From contig NZ_RQWN01000001.1 of NCBI RefSeq assembly GCF_003977755.1, positions 760,995 through 824,994 on the forward strand: a DNA stretch of 64,000 nucleotides. Reading direction: 5' to 3'. The notes under the pieces are model-generated. The model made no database searches. It was not told the DNA's origin and was given only the letters and a program-made list of their open reading frames with translations. Below, in pieces: positions 43,874 to 52,464 of the stretch; within the stretch, counting starts at the first letter, position 1; every line of letters starts with the position of its first letter. The stretch is from Haloterrigena salifodinae. GTDB lineage: Archaea > Halobacteriota > Halobacteria > Halobacteriales > Natrialbaceae. The position numbers and the translations under genes are program-made.

Positions 43874-44101
43874 GTATCTGAGCCGTCCACAGATGTGCAC
43901 AAAAGCGTTGTCTAAACCATCATTTGAGGTGAAATAATGGTCGATGGTGGCTGTGACGATTTTCCGCGACGCGGGCCCGCCGGAGAGCGTGCGAACACTG
44001 CTGCTCGGTCGCGGTGTTTCACACCGGCGAGTGCCGTCGCCCATTGTCGACCGGCACCGAAACGCACACATTCACGGTCCCCGGTCGCCAACGCTGCACC
44101 G

Positions 44102-45334
44102 ATGACCGTTTCGCGAACCGTCGAACTCGAGGGACACATCATCGATTCGGGGACGATGGGCCACTGTTTCGGGGTCGTAATGGATATGGGCGGCGAGTTC
44201 GAGGTCGAGGAGTTCGAAGTCGGCCGCCACAAGCACGCGGAGACCTACTGCCGGATGCGAGTGATGTCCGAGACCGAGGAGGATCTGCGGGCGATCCTCC
44301 ACGAACTCAACCAGCAGGGCGCGACCGTCGCCGATCCGCGCGACGCGACGCTCGAGGCGGCGCCGGAGGACGGCGTCGTCCCCGTCGACTTCTACTCGAC
44401 GACCAACCACCCGACGTTCGTCCGCGTCGACGGCGAGTGGGTCGAGGTCGAGGACGTCGAGATGGACTGTACCCTCGTGGTAGAGAAAGGCGAAGACGAC
44501 GAGCGTCCGCGCGTCTACACGAAGGTCCTGAACGCAGTCGAGGAAGGCGACCTTGTCGTCACCGGCGAAACCGGGATCCGCGTCGAACCGCCGGAACGCC
44601 CCCGCAACGGCAGCGGTTCGTTCGGCTTCATGCAGGGCGGCGTCTCGAGCGAGCGACCCTCGGCGTCGCTGATCGAGGAGATCGCCGACGAGATGCGCGA
44701 GGTCCGGGAAAACGACGGAAACGTCCTCGTCGTCTGCGGCCCGGCGATCGTTCACTCCGGCGGCCGGGACGCGCTCGCGGAGCTCGTCCGCGGGGGCTAC
44801 ATCGACGCGCTTTCGGCCGGCAACGGCTTCGCCGTCCACGACTTAGAGCGCGACCTCTACGGCACCTCGCTGGGCGTCGACACCGAGAGCCTCGAGCACC
44901 CGCGAAAGGGACACAAACACCACATCTACACGATCAGCGAGATCGCCCGCCTCGGCGGGATCGAGGAGGCCGTCGACGAGGGCGTCGTCGACGACGGCGT
45001 GATGTACGAGTGCGTGCGCAACGACGTCCCCTACGTCCTCGCGGGCTCGATCCGCGATGACGGTCCGCTTCCGGACACGGTCACCGATTCGATCGAGGCC
45101 CAGAACGCGATCCGCGAGCAGGCCCAGGAGGCCGACATCGTGCTCATGCTCGCGACGCTGCTTCACTCGGTCGCCGTCGGCAACTGCCTCCCCTCGACGA
45201 CCAAGACCGTCTGCGTCGACATCAACCCTGCAACCGTCACCCAACTTCTCGACCGAGGCAGCGCGCAGGCCATCGGCATGGTCACCGATATCGGGACGTT
45301 CATCCCGATGCTCGCCGAGGAACTGCTCGAGTAA
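44102..45334 (+). CDS. LOR/SDH-domain protein, ornithine cyclodeaminase-like
   Basis: 410 residues. The first part (VELEGHIIDSGTMGHCFGVV, then EVGRHKHAETYCRMRV) and the Rossmann-like second part (LVVCGPAIVHSGGRDALAEL, IDALSAGNGFAVHDLE, and the long acidic GHKHHIYTISEIARLGGI) are those of the TIGR00300/LOR-SDH family. Members have been described as archaeal ornithine cyclodeaminases (ornithine to proline) and as parts of ArgZ/AgrE-type enzymes. The arginine-dihydrolase half is absent here. No proline or arginine gene is adjacent, so the assignment rests on the family alone. Confidence 0.8.
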   Translation: MTVSRTVELEGHIIDSGTMGHCFGVVMDMGGEFEVEEFEVGRHKHAETYCRMRVMSETEEDLRAILHELNQQGATVADPRDATLEAAPEDGVVPVDFYSTTNHPTFVRVDGEWVEVEDVEMDCTLVVEKGEDDERPRVYTKVLNAVEEGDLVVTGETGIRVEPPERPRNGSGSFGFMQGGVSSERPSASLIEEIADEMREVRENDGNVLVVCGPAIVHSGGRDALAELVRGGYIDALSAGNGFAVHDLERDLYGTSLGVDTESLEHPRKGHKHHIYTISEIARLGGIEEAVDEGVVDDGVMYECVRNDVPYVLAGSIRDDGPLPDTVTDSIEAQNAIREQAQEADIVLMLATLLHSVAVGNCLPSTTKTVCVDINPATVTQLLDRGSAQAIGMVTDIGTFIPMLAEELLE

Positions 45335-45578: not shown

Positions 45579-47297
45579 ATGGATGCCGGGAAGACACTCG
45601 TCGACGCCGCCCTCGAGACGCTCCCCATTACCGTCGTGGTCATCGACGAGAACGGAGAGATTCTGTTGACCAACGACTCCTGGCGGGCGTTCGGTTCCGA
45701 CGATCACCAGACGGACCACGTCGGCGCCAACTACATCGTGACGGCGAAGGCGGACGTCGATACCGACGAATACGCCAGACGCGCGGTCGAGGGTCTCGAG
45801 GCGATCATCGACGGCGAGCGAGAGACGTTCACGATGGAGTACCCCTGTCACTCGCCCGAGCGAAAGCAGTGGTTCCTGATGTGGGCGAAGCGATTCCACG
45901 TTGGCGGGGAGCTCCGCGTCTCGGTGGTCCACCTCGATATCACCGAGCGCAAACTGGCCGAGATCACCGTCGAGGAGACCGCCGCGGAACTCCGCGAGGA
46001 ACACCGGGCGCTCGAGCACGTCCTCGAGCGCGTCGACGGCCTGCTCCGTGACGTCACCGACGCCGCCGTCGGCGCGACGACCCGCGAGGAGATCGAACGC
46101 TCGGTCTGTTCGCGTCTCGCCGACACCGACCCGTACGTGCTCGCCTGGATCGGTCGCGTCGATGTCACCAACCGCCGCCTCTCGCCGCGCGAGTGGGCCA
46201 GCGCGGGCGACGTCCCTCTCGAGGACGAGACGCTCGTCCTCGCGTCGGACGAAAGCCACCCCGCCGTTCGGGCGCTCGCGGAGGGAGAGGCGAAGGTGGT
46301 TCAGGACCTCGATTCGTTCGACGACGCGAGGCGGTGGTGGCCGACGGGCGCCGGAGACCGGTTTCAGTCGGTCGCCGCGTTGCCGCTTCGCTACGGCGAC
46401 GTCACGTACGGGGTACTCGTGGTGTTCGCCGACGAACCGGCGGCGTTCTCGGAGCGCGAACTGCTCGTCCTCGACTCGCTCGCCGGGGCGATCTCGACCG
46501 CGATGAACGCGATCGAGGCGCGACAGATGCTCGCGACCGGCGCCGTCGTCGAACTCGAGCTGTCGATCGCGGACCCCGACCTGTTCGTCGCGGCGTTAGC
46601 GACGGAACTCGAGGCGGCGGTCACCTTCCGGGGACTGACCGACGAGGAGGGGACGCCGATCGCGTTCTTCCACGCCGACCGCGCCGTCGACGGCGCCCCG
46701 GACGCGGCGGCGATCGACGGCGTCACCGACGTTCGAATCCTGTCGACGTACGACGGCGGGACCCTCCTCGAGGCTGCCGTCGACGACGGGATCGTGCGGA
46801 CGATCTCCGAACACGGAGGGACGGTTCGACGGTTCGAGACCAGGGGGGACGCATCGCAGGCCGATCGGAGTGCCGTCGGCGACGCAAGCGTCGAACTCAC
46901 CGTCGACCTCCCGAACGGACAGGCCGCACGCTCGGTCTACGACCTCTTGGACCGGTGGTACGACGCGGTCGAGTTGATCAGCTACCACGAGACCGATCGC
47001 CCCAGGCGAACGCCGGGAGACGTGATGGGGCGGCTGGAGTCGTCGTTGACCGATCGCCAGCAAACGGCGCTACGGAAGGCCTACTACGCCGATTACTTCG
47101 AGTGGCCCCGCAACGTCTCCGGCGAGGAACTCGCCGAGTCGATGGGCATCACCCGCTCGACGTTCCACCAGCACCTCCGGACCGCACAGCGGAAGCTGCT
47201 GGACGAACTGTTCGATAGCGCGGAGCTTCGTTCTGCGGACCATGCGAGCGGGCTTCGAGGCGGTGAAACCGCCTCGAACGAGACGAGCGCGGAGTAA
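45579..47297 (+). CDS. Bat-like PAS-GAF-HTH regulator next to crtB
   Basis: 572 residues. A PAS domain covers about 5-125 (VVVIDENGEILLTNDSWRAF ... VHLDITERK), a GAF domain about 150-305 (CSRLADTDPYVLAWIG ... ALPLRYGDVTYGVLVVFAD), then a Bat-specific domain, and HTH_10 at about 490-545 (LTDRQQTALRKAYYADYFEW, then GITRSTFHQHLRT). This is the order of the bacterio-opsin activator Bat, an oxygen and light responsive regulator of purple-membrane and carotenoid genes. No bop or brp is in the window; crtB follows directly. The last ~25 residues, after LLDELFDS, are encoded by a palindromic element and are likely an added tail. Confidence 0.88.
   Translation: MDAGKTLVDAALETLPITVVVIDENGEILLTNDSWRAFGSDDHQTDHVGANYIVTAKADVDTDEYARRAVEGLEAIIDGERETFTMEYPCHSPERKQWFLMWAKRFHVGGELRVSVVHLDITERKLAEITVEETAAELREEHRALEHVLERVDGLLRDVTDAAVGATTREEIERSVCSRLADTDPYVLAWIGRVDVTNRRLSPREWASAGDVPLEDETLVLASDESHPAVRALAEGEAKVVQDLDSFDDARRWWPTGAGDRFQSVAALPLRYGDVTYGVLVVFADEPAAFSERELLVLDSLAGAISTAMNAIEARQMLATGAVVELELSIADPDLFVAALATELEAAVTFRGLTDEEGTPIAFFHADRAVDGAPDAAAIDGVTDVRILSTYDGGTLLEAAVDDGIVRTISEHGGTVRRFETRGDASQADRSAVGDASVELTVDLPNGQAARSVYDLLDRWYDAVELISYHETDRPRRTPGDVMGRLESSLTDRQQTALRKAYYADYFEWPRNVSGEELAESMGITRSTFHQHLRTAQRKLLDELFDSAELRSADHASGLRGGETASNETSAE
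47254..47278. repeat. Perfect triloop palindrome inside the bat-like 3' end
   Basis: TTCGAGGCGGT-GAA-ACCGCCTCGAA: 11-bp perfect arms around GAA, located within the last 15 codons of the Bat-like gene. It encodes part of the non-conserved tail GLRGGETASNETSAE. The GAA loop between inverted arms is the same arrangement as the purF-downstream element at 10305-10323. In RNA it would make a very stable hairpin just before the stop codon. Confidence 0.75.
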
Positions 47298-47369: not shown

Positions 47370-47399
47370 ACCCCACTAGGTAGGGGTAGCTATTTTATA
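47370..47399 (+). promoter_or_regulatory. crtB promoter: Bat-type UAS plus TATA box
   Basis: ACCCCACTAGGTAGG at 47370-47384 matches the Bat upstream activating sequence known from the Halobacterium bop regulon (as I recall, ACC-c-n-actag-TT-n-GG) at all but one position. Seven bases further on is the TATA box TATTTTATA (47391-47399), the UAS-TATA spacing of bop-type promoters. crtB's ATG is at 47452, so a short leader is expected. With the Bat-like gene immediately upstream, local control of carotenoid synthesis is likely. Confidence 0.7.
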
Positions 47400-47451
47400 C
47401 GCAACTGTCGTATCAGTTACATCCCACCGCGGGGAGGGCCACGAACAGAGC

Positions 47452-48402
47452 ATGCAGCAGAAACACATCGACGCCGGCAAGACGATCCAGCAGCGCACGG
47501 GGAAGACGTTCTACCTGGCGACGAAGTTCCTCCCGGAACGGGTTCGCCACGCGACGCACGTCCTCTACGGGTTCTTCCGGATCGCCGACGAGGTGGTCGA
47601 CGACGCGGAGGGCGTTCCGCCCGACAGGCAGCGCGCCGAACTCGAGTCGCTCCGAGCGCAGGCCCTCGGTGAAACCGAGCCCGAGGGACCCGTCCTCGAG
47701 GCGTTCGAGGAGCTCCGGCGGGAGTACGACATCGCCGACGACGAAATTAACTCGTTCGTCGACGCGATGCAGTCGGACATCGAGACCGACCGGTACGAGA
47801 CCTACGACGACCTCGAGTCGTACATGCGTGGCTCGGCGGCCGCCGTCGGCGTGATGATGACGGCGATCATGGATCCCGACGAGCGCGAGGTCGCGCTCCC
47901 CCACGCCGTCAAACTCGGCGAGGCGTTCCAGATGACGAACTTCCTGCGGGACGTCCGCGAGGACGTCGTCGAGCGCGATCGGATCTACCTGCCACAGGAG
48001 ACGCTCCGCTCGTACGGCGTTTCGGACGCCCAGATCGAACGCCTCGAGTACTCCGATTCCTTCGCGGCCGCGATGACGGCGGAGCTCAAACGAACTGAGG
48101 AACTCTACCGCGAGGGCGTCGCCGGCATCCGCTATCTCCCCGAGGACTGCCAACTGCCCGTTCTGCTGGCGGCCGTCCTCTACGCGGAACACCACACCGT
48201 GATCCGATCCCAGGAGTACGATGTCTTGTCCCGCGAGCCGTCGCTCTCCACGACGCGAAAGCTTCGGTGTCTCGCGAAGACGCGCTGGCACTGGCACTGG
48301 AGCCGCGATCCGGATGCCGTCTTCCGGCGGGTCTCGGCCGTTCCCGATCGCGACCGCGACCGCCACGAGGCCGGACACGGCGGTCGCGTCCCGACGCAGT
48401 GA
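47452..48402 (+). CDS. crtB: Phytoene synthase
   Basis: 316 residues of the squalene/phytoene synthase family. The first Asp-rich motif is RIADEVVDDAEG (Asp46 and Asp50), the second NFLRDVREDVVERDRIYLP near 160-180, with the central RGSAAAVGVMM segment. It condenses two geranylgeranyl diphosphates to phytoene, the entry into C40 carotenoids, which the crtD-lyeJ-cruF genes turn into C50 bacterioruberin, and into retinal when a brp gene exists elsewhere. The phytoene desaturase crtI is not in the window. The promoter carries a Bat-type UAS. Confidence 0.94.
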   Translation: MQQKHIDAGKTIQQRTGKTFYLATKFLPERVRHATHVLYGFFRIADEVVDDAEGVPPDRQRAELESLRAQALGETEPEGPVLEAFEELRREYDIADDEINSFVDAMQSDIETDRYETYDDLESYMRGSAAAVGVMMTAIMDPDEREVALPHAVKLGEAFQMTNFLRDVREDVVERDRIYLPQETLRSYGVSDAQIERLEYSDSFAAAMTAELKRTEELYREGVAGIRYLPEDCQLPVLLAAVLYAEHHTVIRSQEYDVLSREPSLSTTRKLRCLAKTRWHWHWSRDPDAVFRRVSAVPDRDRDRHEAGHGGRVPTQ

Positions 48403-48669: not shown

Positions 48670-48831
48670 TCACTCCGAGACGTCCCTCGCGTTCAGCGCC
48701 TCGGCTTCGGCGACGACGAACCGCGCTAACCGCCGTTTGGTGTGAGCGTCGACGAGGTGGTCCTCGAGGCACCCGTCAGCCTCGAGTTCGGTGCGACAGA
48801 GCGGACACTCGACCGGTACTATGGTCGCCAT
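48670..48831 (-). CDS. Small C2H2-type zinc-finger protein
   Basis: 53 residues starting MATIVPVECPLC. A CPLC pair is followed 12-17 residues later by HLVDAH, giving a C2H2 zinc finger; the rest is an Ala/Arg-rich helix (RRLARFVVAEAEALNARD). Such single-finger haloarchaeal proteins are common and poorly understood. Start chosen to begin right before the finger; a longer upstream frame to 48915 is not supported. It is convergent with the tiny membrane protein. Confidence 0.72.
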   Translation of the reverse strand: MATIVPVECPLCRTELEADGCLEDHLVDAHTKRRLARFVVAEAEALNARDVSE

Positions 48832-49150: not shown

Positions 49151-50089
49151 TCACGAGTCGCGATCCGTCCCGATACTCGCGGGAAGCGCTGTCAGGAGCA
49201 GCTCGCGGTCGTAGCGCTCGGTCCGGAACAGACCGAGGCAGAACAGGCCGGCGACGGCGGCGGCCAGCCAGTTCCCGTAGAGGACGTTGATCGCCCCCCA
49301 GAGCACCACGAAGCTCACCAGATCGTCGAGGACGAACTCGCAGGTCCGGACGCGCTCGAGCAGCGCCGCGCGGTCGAAGGCGCGGTCGACGAGGAGAACC
49401 GCGACGGTTCCCGAGAGGAGCCAGCCGACGTAGTTCGAGGCGGGAACGCCGTAGTAGCCGCCCGGCGGGATGTACGCCCAGAACCCGATGGCGACGGCGG
49501 CCGGATCGAGAACGAGGTCGACGGCGACGACGGCGGCGATCGCGGTCGGGATCCTGACGAGGGGCCGCGCGCTCCACCCGTCAAGGACCAGTAGCGTCAG
49601 CAGGAAGGCGTTCAGGACCAGTGGGAGGAAAAACAGCGGGAGCGCGAGCGGGATTTCGCCGAGCAGCATCGGCCCCAACTGGATCCCGTACTCGAAGGTC
49701 CCGTAGGGCCAGCCGGTTCGCACGCCGACCAGTTCGATCGCGTACGTGTATGCCGTCACGAGACCTAGATAGACCAGCGCTCGGCGGTCGACCTGCGGAA
49801 GCAAGCCGACGACGAGCGGCGAACGCATCACCAGCGTCCCGAACAGGATCAACAGCGGGTTGTACGCGAGCGGTCCCGGAAGCAGTCCCTCCGCGCTCGC
49901 GACCAGCGTCACCGCGCCGACGACCGGGAACACGACCGCGATCGTAAAGCGGTTCTCGCGGATCAGCGCCTCGAGGCGTCGCTCGAGAGCTGCCCGACGC
50001 TCGTCGGTATCGGGGTCGGTCTCGGAATCGGGATCAGTAACGGCGTCCGAATCGATATCGGCGTTCGCCGTCGTGTCCGGATCAGCCAT
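49151..50089 (-). CDS. cruF: C50 carotenoid hydratase CruF
   Basis: 312 residues. After an acidic, Asp-rich N-terminal tail come about seven membrane segments, with the typical YAIELVGVRTGWPYGTFEYG motif, LDPAAVAIGFWAY-IPPGGYYGVP and SNYVGWLLSG. The family hydrates the C-1',2' double bonds of C50 carotenoid precursors in the membrane, the final step to bacterioruberin in haloarchaea. The start overlaps the lyeJ stop by 8 bases, so translation is coupled. The order crtD-lyeJ-cruF is the standard haloarchaeal bacterioruberin operon. Confidence 0.92.
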   Translation of the reverse strand: MADPDTTANADIDSDAVTDPDSETDPDTDERRAALERRLEALIRENRFTIAVVFPVVGAVTLVASAEGLLPGPLAYNPLLILFGTLVMRSPLVVGLLPQVDRRALVYLGLVTAYTYAIELVGVRTGWPYGTFEYGIQLGPMLLGEIPLALPLFFLPLVLNAFLLTLLVLDGWSARPLVRIPTAIAAVVAVDLVLDPAAVAIGFWAYIPPGGYYGVPASNYVGWLLSGTVAVLLVDRAFDRAALLERVRTCEFVLDDLVSFVVLWGAINVLYGNWLAAAVAGLFCLGLFRTERYDRELLLTALPASIGTDRDS

Positions 50090-50954
50090 AGAGCACCCTC
50101 CAGAGGCCGCCCATCGTCAGCGTCGCACCGACGACCGTGTTGATCGCCGGGAACCACCAGTACGCGCGGTCGACCGCGACGCTCGAGGTCGCGATCGCGG
50201 CGACGAGGCCGGGGTAGACGAGCATGAGCGCGCCCAGGCGGAGATCGAGCGCGCCGAACGCGGCGGCGCTCGCGAGCCAGCAAGCGCCGCAGTAGGCGTA
50301 GGTCCAGCGCTCGCCAAGCGCCGTCGCGGTCGTCCGGATGCCGGTCTCCTGATCGGGTTCGATGTCGGGGATCGCGGAGAAGGTGTGCATCCCCATCGCC
50401 CACAGCCAGCCGCCGAGGACGGCGAGGACCGGGGGTTGGCTCCCCGCGACGGCGGCGTAGGCCGCCGCACCGGGGGCGATGTAGAGCCCGTTTGAGACCG
50501 AGTCCAGTAGCGGCGTCGTCTTGAACCGGACCGGCGGCGCGCTGTAGGCCGCCCCGAGGACGAGAAAGACCGCGAGCCACGGCCACGCCGCCGACGGGAC
50601 GAGCGGGAGGAACGCCAGCGGCAGGAGCGCGCAGACGGTCACGACGACGGGAACGATCCGCTGGCCGCGGTACCGGGCCTCCTGCTCCGATTTCTTCGGA
50701 TTCGCGGCGTCGATCTCGCGATCGTAGATGTCGTTGATCCCATAGAGGAAGACGTTCGCCGGAAGCAGGAAGTAGGCGAACAGGACAATCGCCGCGGGTG
50801 CGAACACGTCGCCGACGCCGGCGGCGGCGTAGGCGACGCCGACGAGCACCGGGCCGGCGAGATAGAGCCAGAACCGCGGGCGAGAGAGGGTCAGCAGGTA
50901 CCGGAGTCGGTCGCCGTATCGGCCGTCGCCCGCCGCCGTCGAGTTCGCGGTCAT
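50082..50954 (-). CDS. lyeJ: Lycopene elongase / hydratase (UbiA-type prenyltransferase)
   Basis: 290 residues of the UbiA family with eight or nine membrane segments. The first Asp-rich site is YGINDIYDREID (Asn74, Asp75, Asp78) followed by NPKKSEQEARY; the second is IPDIEPDQETGIRT near 195-210. It adds C5 dimethylallyl units to both ends of lycopene, giving the C50 skeleton, and in haloarchaea also hydrates it. It starts 13 bp after the crtD stop and overlaps cruF by 8 bases, so the three form one operon. Confidence 0.93.
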   Translation of the reverse strand: MTANSTAAGDGRYGDRLRYLLTLSRPRFWLYLAGPVLVGVAYAAAGVGDVFAPAAIVLFAYFLLPANVFLYGINDIYDREIDAANPKKSEQEARYRGQRIVPVVVTVCALLPLAFLPLVPSAAWPWLAVFLVLGAAYSAPPVRFKTTPLLDSVSNGLYIAPGAAAYAAVAGSQPPVLAVLGGWLWAMGMHTFSAIPDIEPDQETGIRTTATALGERWTYAYCGACWLASAAAFGALDLRLGALMLVYPGLVAAIATSSVAVDRAYWWFPAINTVVGATLTMGGLWRVLYG

Positions 50955-50967
50955 GGCGATGGGGCGA

Positions 50968-52464
50968 TCATCGGCCGGTCGGTCGGCCGTAGTCCTCGAG
51001 GACCTTCTCGGCGGTCAGCTCGCCGCTAATGAGACACATCGGGACGCCGATCCCGGGCGTCGTGTCCCCGCCGACGAAGTAGAGGCCGTCGACACCCTTG
51101 GCGCGGTGGGGCGGGCGGAACAGCGCGGTCTGGCGGAGCGTATGGGCCAGTCCGAGGGCCGTCCCGTCGTAGCTGTTGTACCGGTCGGCGAAGTCCTCGA
51201 TGCAAAAGCGCTCCTCGAGGACGATCCGGTCGCGCAGATCGACCCCGGTGTTGACCGCGATGTCCGCGAGGATCCTGTCGCGGTATTCCTCGCGGGTTTC
51301 GGGGGTGTCCTCGAGGCCGGGCGCGATGGGAACGAGGACGAACAGCGCGCTGTGGCCGTCGGGAGCGACGTCGTCGTCGGTCTTCGAGGGCACGCAGAGG
51401 TAGTAAGCGGGATCCTCGGGCCACTCGGGGTCCTCGAAGATCCGATCGAAGTGGTCCTGCCAGTCCGTGGGGAGGACCAGCGTGTGGTGGGCGAGTTCGT
51501 CGACCGACCCCTCGACGCCGAGGTACAGCAGGAACGCGGAGGGCGCGTAGGTTCGCTTCTCCCAGTAGTCGGCGTCGTAACCGCGCTGTTCGGGCTGTAA
51601 GAGCTCCTGTTCGGTGTGGGCGTAGTCGGCGTTGCTGACGACCAGGTCCGACCGGACCGGTCCCTCGGGCGTCTCGACGAGGAAGGCCCCCTCGCGGCCC
51701 TTGATCGCCGTCGCGGGCCGATCGGTGTCGTACTCGACGCCTAGTTCGCGCCCCAGTTGCGCGATGCTGTCGACGACGGCGGCGATCCCCCCGTCGGGAT
51801 ACCAGACGCCGAGGTTGAAATCGACGTGGCTCATCAGGTTGTACAGCGCCGGCGTGTTCGTCGGCGACCCGCCGAGAAACACCAGCGTGTACTGCATGAT
51901 CTGCTGGAGCTTCGGGTGATCGAAGTAGTCCTCGACGTGGCCCTGCATCGACCCCAGCAGGGACAGCCCGCGCGCCTGCCGGGCCACGTTGGGATCGATG
52001 AAGTCCCGCAGCCGCGTGCGGTCCTCGTAGACGAAGTGTTCCATCCCGACCTCGTAGTTCTCCTTCGATTTCTCGAGGTAACGCTCGAGGGCATCACCCG
52101 CGCCGTCCTCGTACTCATCGAAGACAGCCTTCGTTCGCTCGAGGTCGGGCGTGACATCGACCCGATCCCCGTCCTTGAAGAACAGCCGGTAGTGCGGATC
52201 GAGGTGCGTCAGTTCGTAGTAGTCCGAGGGCGTCCGATCGAAGTCGCCGAAGAAGCGCTCGAAGACGTCCGGCATCAGGTACCACGAGGGGCCCATGTCG
52301 AACCGGAAGCCGTCTTTCTCGAGGCGACTCGCTCGACCGCCGACCTGCTCGTTCTTCTCGATGACCCGCACGTCGGCGCCCGCGTCGGCGAGGTAACAGG
52401 CCGTCGCGAGGCCGCCGATTCCGGCGCCGATCACGACGACCGACTCACCGGCCAGCGATTGCAT
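50968..52464 (-). CDS. crtD: Carotenoid 3,4-desaturase
   Basis: 498 residues of the CrtI/CrtD FAD amine-oxidase-like family. The FAD fold is at the start: VVVIGAGIGGLATACYLADA, then RVIEKNEQVGGRASR. A C-terminal FAD segment reads GLYFVGGDTTPGIGVPM, and the substrate-binding region has FLGGSPTNTPALYNLMSHVD. It introduces the 3,4 double bonds on the way from C50 intermediates to bacterioruberin. It could also be read as a phytoene desaturase, but its place in front of lyeJ and cruF favours CrtD. First gene of the operon; the spacer to 52656 carries a weak TATA-like CTTTTC. No Bat UAS seen there. Confidence 0.88.
   Translation of the reverse strand: MQSLAGESVVVIGAGIGGLATACYLADAGADVRVIEKNEQVGGRASRLEKDGFRFDMGPSWYLMPDVFERFFGDFDRTPSDYYELTHLDPHYRLFFKDGDRVDVTPDLERTKAVFDEYEDGAGDALERYLEKSKENYEVGMEHFVYEDRTRLRDFIDPNVARQARGLSLLGSMQGHVEDYFDHPKLQQIMQYTLVFLGGSPTNTPALYNLMSHVDFNLGVWYPDGGIAAVVDSIAQLGRELGVEYDTDRPATAIKGREGAFLVETPEGPVRSDLVVSNADYAHTEQELLQPEQRGYDADYWEKRTYAPSAFLLYLGVEGSVDELAHHTLVLPTDWQDHFDRIFEDPEWPEDPAYYLCVPSKTDDDVAPDGHSALFVLVPIAPGLEDTPETREEYRDRILADIAVNTGVDLRDRIVLEERFCIEDFADRYNSYDGTALGLAHTLRQTALFRPPHRAKGVDGLYFVGGDTTPGIGVPMCLISGELTAEKVLEDYGRPTGR

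Follow-up and report, generated by a model that had tools for sequence, protein, structure and literature searches.

A Bat-UAS-like element before crtB in Haloterrigena salifodinae and its probable use by an adjacent Bat-type regulator in Natrialbaceae

The window, a stretch of 64,000 nt from Haloterrigena salifodinae (NZ_RQWN01000001.1, positions 760,995 to 824,994), contains the phytoene synthase gene crtB, preceded on the same strand by a gene for a Bat-type regulator and facing a convergent bacterioruberin operon (Table 1). Phytoene synthase catalyses the first committed step to bacterioruberin, and crtB starts the synthesis of the red pigment. The crtB product was recognized as SQS_PSY (Pfam, 1e-69) and is 96% identical to that of Haloterrigena salina, the nearest named relative; its assignment with respect to the crtB1 and crtB2 types of Halobacterium was judged by synteny. 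The 5′ neighbor of the regulator gene is an ArgZ-like/TIGR00300 ornithine cyclodeaminase gene (43937-45334, + strand), which is found directly before crtB in Natronococcus lacking the regulator, so that the regulator gene separates two genes that are otherwise neighbors. Just 3′ of crtB, a gene on the opposite strand (48670-48831) codes for a C2H2-like zinc-finger protein of 53 aa (CPLCRTEL...DHLVDAH); this small gene is kept beside crtB in Haloterrigena, Natrinema and several Natronorubrum, and its product calls to mind the small zinc-finger proteins that act as regulators in the bop region.

Table 1. Genes and promoter elements around crtB, in coordinates of the window.
Feature	Position	Strand	Evidence or context
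Bat-type regulator gene, PAS (non-LOV)-GAF-BAT-HTH_10	45579..47297	+	Pfam, phylogeny, helix, adjacency to crtB
Motif ACCCCACTAGGTAGGGG	47370-47386	+	Between Bat-type gene and crtB, just 5′ of TATA box
15-mer ACCCCACTAGGTAGG, part of the motif	47370-47384	+	Pattern search of the window
Bat-linked half-site ACC-CC-ACTAG	47370..47379	+	ACTAG substitution counts; same half in rhodopsin promoters
Right half GTAGGGG (family consensus TGAGGGn)	47380..47386	+	Equally conserved with or without Bat
TATA box TTTTATA	47393..47399	+	Core nearly invariant across all crtB copies
Conserved CTGTCGTA, 5 bases 3′ of TATA box	47405..47412	+	crtB promoter comparison
crtB, phytoene synthase of the bacterioruberin cluster	47452..48402	+	Pfam SQS_PSY; adjoins cruF, lyeJ-like UbiA, crtI/crtD
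Convergent bacterioruberin operon	49151..52464	-	Pfam; synteny in relatives
CruF	49151-50089	-	Bacterioruberin operon
UbiA/LyeJ-type prenyltransferase	50082-50954	-	Bacterioruberin operon
CrtI/CrtD desaturase	50968-52464	-	Bacterioruberin operon

The original prediction described the sequence before crtB as a Bat UAS with a single deviating position, followed by a TATA box and directly preceded by a gene for a Bat-like PAS-GAF-HTH protein, and this description was confirmed. The 15-mer ACCCCACTAGGTAGG carries G in place of T relative to the Bat UAS consensus, which we take to be ACCnnACTAGTTnGG, a sequence also seen directly in rhodopsin promoters of other families; the TATA box TTTTATA lies behind the motif and ahead of the crtB start codon, and the Bat-type gene ends 72 bp 5′ of the motif. 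The 15-mer is the sole match in the window with zero to two mismatches, the chance expectation for up to three mismatches being 0.44. The strict pattern ACCNNACTAGKTNGG occurs at three places in the 4.96-Mb genome; apart from the site before crtB, these are two non-genic copies of a single sequence on contig C4, and the pattern CCNNACTAGNNNGG-N2-12-TTTATA has exactly one site in the genome, that before crtB.

Comparison within the family Natrialbaceae extended this picture. The pattern of motif plus TATA box gave 38 matches in 125 family genomes, 36 of them at crtB, and a reversed control pattern gave one match in the same genomes. Nearly every crtB of the family is preceded by a gap-free footprint of 44 bp with the consensus ACCnnACTAGTGAGGG-n7-TTTTATA-n5-CTGTCGTA, which was present in all 46 crtB promoters first compared and later in more than 100. 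In an order-wide search, a 34-bp core of this footprint appeared once each in 48 of 63 Natrialbaceae genomes and was absent from ca. 230 genomes of other families, and the 30 places that were fetched all lie before crtB. The right half takes the form GTAGGGG in five Haloterrigena genomes. The element CTGTCGTA follows the TATA box with constant spacing in nearly all of the family's crtB promoters; the stretch from the TATA box to CTGTCGTA was also considered as a symmetric second operator, and no covariation was seen by eye in the promoter comparison.

The regulator encoded upstream of the motif contains GAF, BAT (PF15915, 1.8e-28) and C-terminal HTH_10 (6e-20) domains, together with a PAS_4 domain below its cut-off, and the recognition helix in HTH_10 is TRSTFHQHLRTAQRK. 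The helix RST(F/Y)HQHL was found in each of the 49 sequences of crtB-linked Bats that were read, a set in which some genomes were read twice, and in the four rhodopsin-linked Bats compared. None of the 49 crtB-linked sequences contains the LOV motif GRNCRFLQ, which is present in three of the four rhodopsin-linked Bats, and because of its absence we refer to the protein as Bat-type and not as Bat proper. The crtB-linked Bats form a clade of their own (support 100/100) and are sister to the rhodopsin-linked Bats, both groups being separated from 14 of the 15 other HTH_10 paralogues of the genome (support 100/99). There are at least 15 such further HTH_10/BAT-family paralogues in H. salifodinae (L386-L400); they share the GAF-BAT-HTH_10 architecture and 30-37% identity with the crtB-linked Bat, but have different recognition helices and, except for L388, fall outside the group of both Bats. 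Paralogue L388 (contig C2) has the LOV motif and the helix RPTFHEHL and was considered as a possible true Bat, but no UAS-TATA site lies beside it. Searched by sequence, the PDB yielded no protein related to the regulator.

Gene crtB is present in 123 of the 125 family genomes and the Bat-type gene in 62, and in all of these 62 the latter is situated directly 5′ of a crtB, on the same strand, with gaps of 303 bp or less in 61 cases and of 1640 bp in one. Four Natrialba genomes contain two copies of crtB (L281, L285, L290, L292 and L287, L296, L300, L301). One copy lies behind Bat and the other has no Bat and, where read, lies behind an ornithine cyclodeaminase-like gene. The copies behind Bat have (A/G)CCA(C/T)ACTAGTGTGGG with a decayed core, whereas those without Bat have lost the left half (e.g., CTGCAGTCAGGG) and keep the core, with TATTTTATA and CTGTGGTA. 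These paralogue pairs are a natural experiment that separates the two halves of the element.

Selection on each part of the promoter was examined on a tree of 114 crtB copies, counting parsimony changes inside clades in which all or none of the members have Bat. The five positions of ACTAG showed 0 changes with Bat (tree length 4.58) and 31 without it (5.23; p = 5e-9), and again 0 vs. 31 (p = 3.5e-6) after removing the 18 copies whose Bat frame runs into the motif, an exclusion in which ten Bat tails were not located by the search pattern; these p-values are approximate, because parsimony changes are treated as independent and changes between clades are left out. On induced subtrees, the ACTAG rates were 0.26 with Bat and 1.14 without. 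TGAGGG accumulated four changes with Bat and six without (0.15 vs. 0.19 per site per unit tree length), the TATA box five and six, and no difference in rate was found in these pure-clade counts for the spacer and the upstream flank, the latter not being conserved. ACCCC and CTGTCGTA evolve two to three times slower when Bat is adjacent, the factor for CTGTCGTA being about three, and the downstream flank evolves slightly slower. Since ACTAG is frozen only with Bat, whereas TGAGGG and the TATA box are kept either way, the promoter appears to be composite; the persistence of the TGAGGG half and the TATA box without Bat, also in lineages lacking it, points to another function for them.

The contrast has limits. 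Most ACTAG changes fall in older Bat-less clades, there are as yet none in the Natrinema clades of recent Bat loss, and recent losses have mostly not yet been followed by erasure of ACTAG; additionally, ACTAGTGAGGG occurs in some Bat-less lineages, among them Halostagnicola. The presence of TAG was not associated with that of Bat in nine supported independent pairs, about eight of which showed no difference, in a test without power. The recent-loss clades and the null pair test lower, but do not remove, the support for a Bat-linked constraint on ACTAG.

Elsewhere, a Bat-type switch turns on the light-driven pump bacteriorhodopsin. At four rhodopsin loci of other families (L401-L404), a Bat gene is located directly 5′ of the rhodopsin gene, which is followed by a gene resembling a lycopene cyclase (named by eye), and the known site can be read directly in rhodopsin promoters of other families, for example in the forms TACCACACTAGTTTGGT, TACCCAACTAGGTTGGT and, as a palindrome, TACCACACTAGTGTGGT. 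The loci of H. salifodinae and L401-L404 share the order of Bat gene, UAS of the ACC-n2-ACTAG type and target on one strand, as well as, between their Bats, the helix RSTFHQHL and an alignable region from GAF to HTH with 32-40% identity; they differ in the bacteriorhodopsin target, in a right half that is mostly TTGG and in the LOV motif of most rhodopsin-linked Bats. The ACC-n2-ACTAG half is common to the crtB promoter and these rhodopsin promoters and lies, in the window, directly 5′ of the promoter, as expected for a Bat UAS. The TTnGG right half of the bop UAS is absent from the window site (GTAGGGG) and from the family consensus (TGAGGG); right-half variants GTTGG and TGTGG exist among rhodopsin promoters.

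In Halobacterium salinarum, Bat acts through the UAS on bop, brp, bat and crtB1 (PMC1502140, PMC1885257), two of which, bop and crtB1, are targets of Brz as well (PMC2253796). The likeness to the Natrialbaceae system lies in an activator with PAS, GAF and C-terminal HTH domains and in a UAS before target promoters that include that of a phytoene synthase gene. However, the H. salinarum regulon is devoted to bacteriorhodopsin and retinal and involves Brz as a further factor, whereas crtB of H. salifodinae is part of the bacterioruberin cluster, in a genome where no bacteriorhodopsin gene was found, and a single site per genome was found. As noted originally, there is no rhodopsin gene near the site; a genome search of H. 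salifodinae identified one rhodopsin, of the sensory type, in another contig (C3), and no bacteriorhodopsin gene. The partner of the Bat-type gene is crtB, and linkage to bop or brp was not encountered.

We consider a composite promoter the probable explanation of these data (ca. three chances in four), on comparative sequence evidence. An old core formed by TGAGGG, the TATA box and CTGTCGTA would drive crtB in nearly all Natrialbaceae and, in about half of the genomes, the Bat-type regulator encoded upstream would bind the ACC-n2-ACTAG half directly 5′ of the TATA box and modulate, most likely activate, transcription of the phytoene synthase gene. The predicted protected stretch is ACCCCACTAG, and protection should depend on ACTAG and not on the right half. 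The original proposal that crtB is controlled locally by its Bat-like neighbor gains support from the 62/62 linkage, the selection on ACTAG, the Natrialba pairs and the helix and half-site shared with rhodopsin-linked Bats. Binding itself, the sign of regulation and the signal are those parts of the model that we infer: activation is suggested by the known role of Bat and by the position of the site directly 5′ of the TATA box, and, as the LOV motif is absent, the regulator probably does not respond to a flavin signal of the LOV type as in rhodopsin-linked Bats. With a crtB from the bacterioruberin cluster and a regulator without LOV, it should therefore not be assumed that crtB answers to light or low oxygen in the way bop does.

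A different reading, in which the whole element works independently of Bat, through some other factor or the basal machinery, while the Bat-type gene acts elsewhere or on itself, would agree with the occurrence of the footprint in lineages without Bat, with the persistence of TGAGGG, the TATA box and CTGTCGTA there, with the retention of ACTAG after recent losses and with the near confinement of the element to crtB. It leaves unexplained that the constraint on ACTAG is lost where Bat is absent, as well as the Natrialba pairs and the helix and half-site in common with rhodopsin-linked Bats, and we judge it unlikely. ACTAG could also be conserved because the end of the Bat gene needs it as coding sequence or stop codon, or because it belongs to a bat terminator: among the 62 copies there are 18 in which the Bat frame was seen to continue into the motif, where it encodes ...PTSEG-stop or similar. 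This explanation is weakened, to the point of being very improbable, by the ACTAG contrast that stands after removing those copies (with the ten unlocated tails), by the Bat frame of the window, which stops well before the motif, and by the lack of conservation in the upstream flank. Finally, a chance resemblance to the Bat UAS might be argued from the strict 15-mer pattern, which by itself also hits two non-genic repeats, but the gap-free footprint kept in over 100 crtB promoters, unique in the genome once a TATA box is required, rules it out as far as conservation goes and makes it hardly credible.

Promoter and regulator most likely form a rewired Bat-UAS module with an altered sensor. We would give an even chance to a more specific history, by which a bacteriorhodopsin-type activator became a single-target regulator of bacterioruberin, keeping its helix and ACC-n2-ACTAG, with a non-LOV sensor, its half-site being overlaid on an older TGAGGG read by another factor and the operator half decaying upon loss of the regulator. 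The literature searched revealed no transcriptional regulator dedicated to the bacterioruberin pathway. The locus would offer a candidate for this role with its putative operator, and the family supplies, as a natural comparison, genomes that have the regulator and genomes that lack it; one half of the site is predicted to be Bat-dependent and the other not. Among the relatives, Natrinema gari J7-2 is tractable, CRISPR-based genome editing being reported for it (PMC10433800). The locus would also suggest that an archaeal regulator can switch both its target and its sensor while an operator half is retained.
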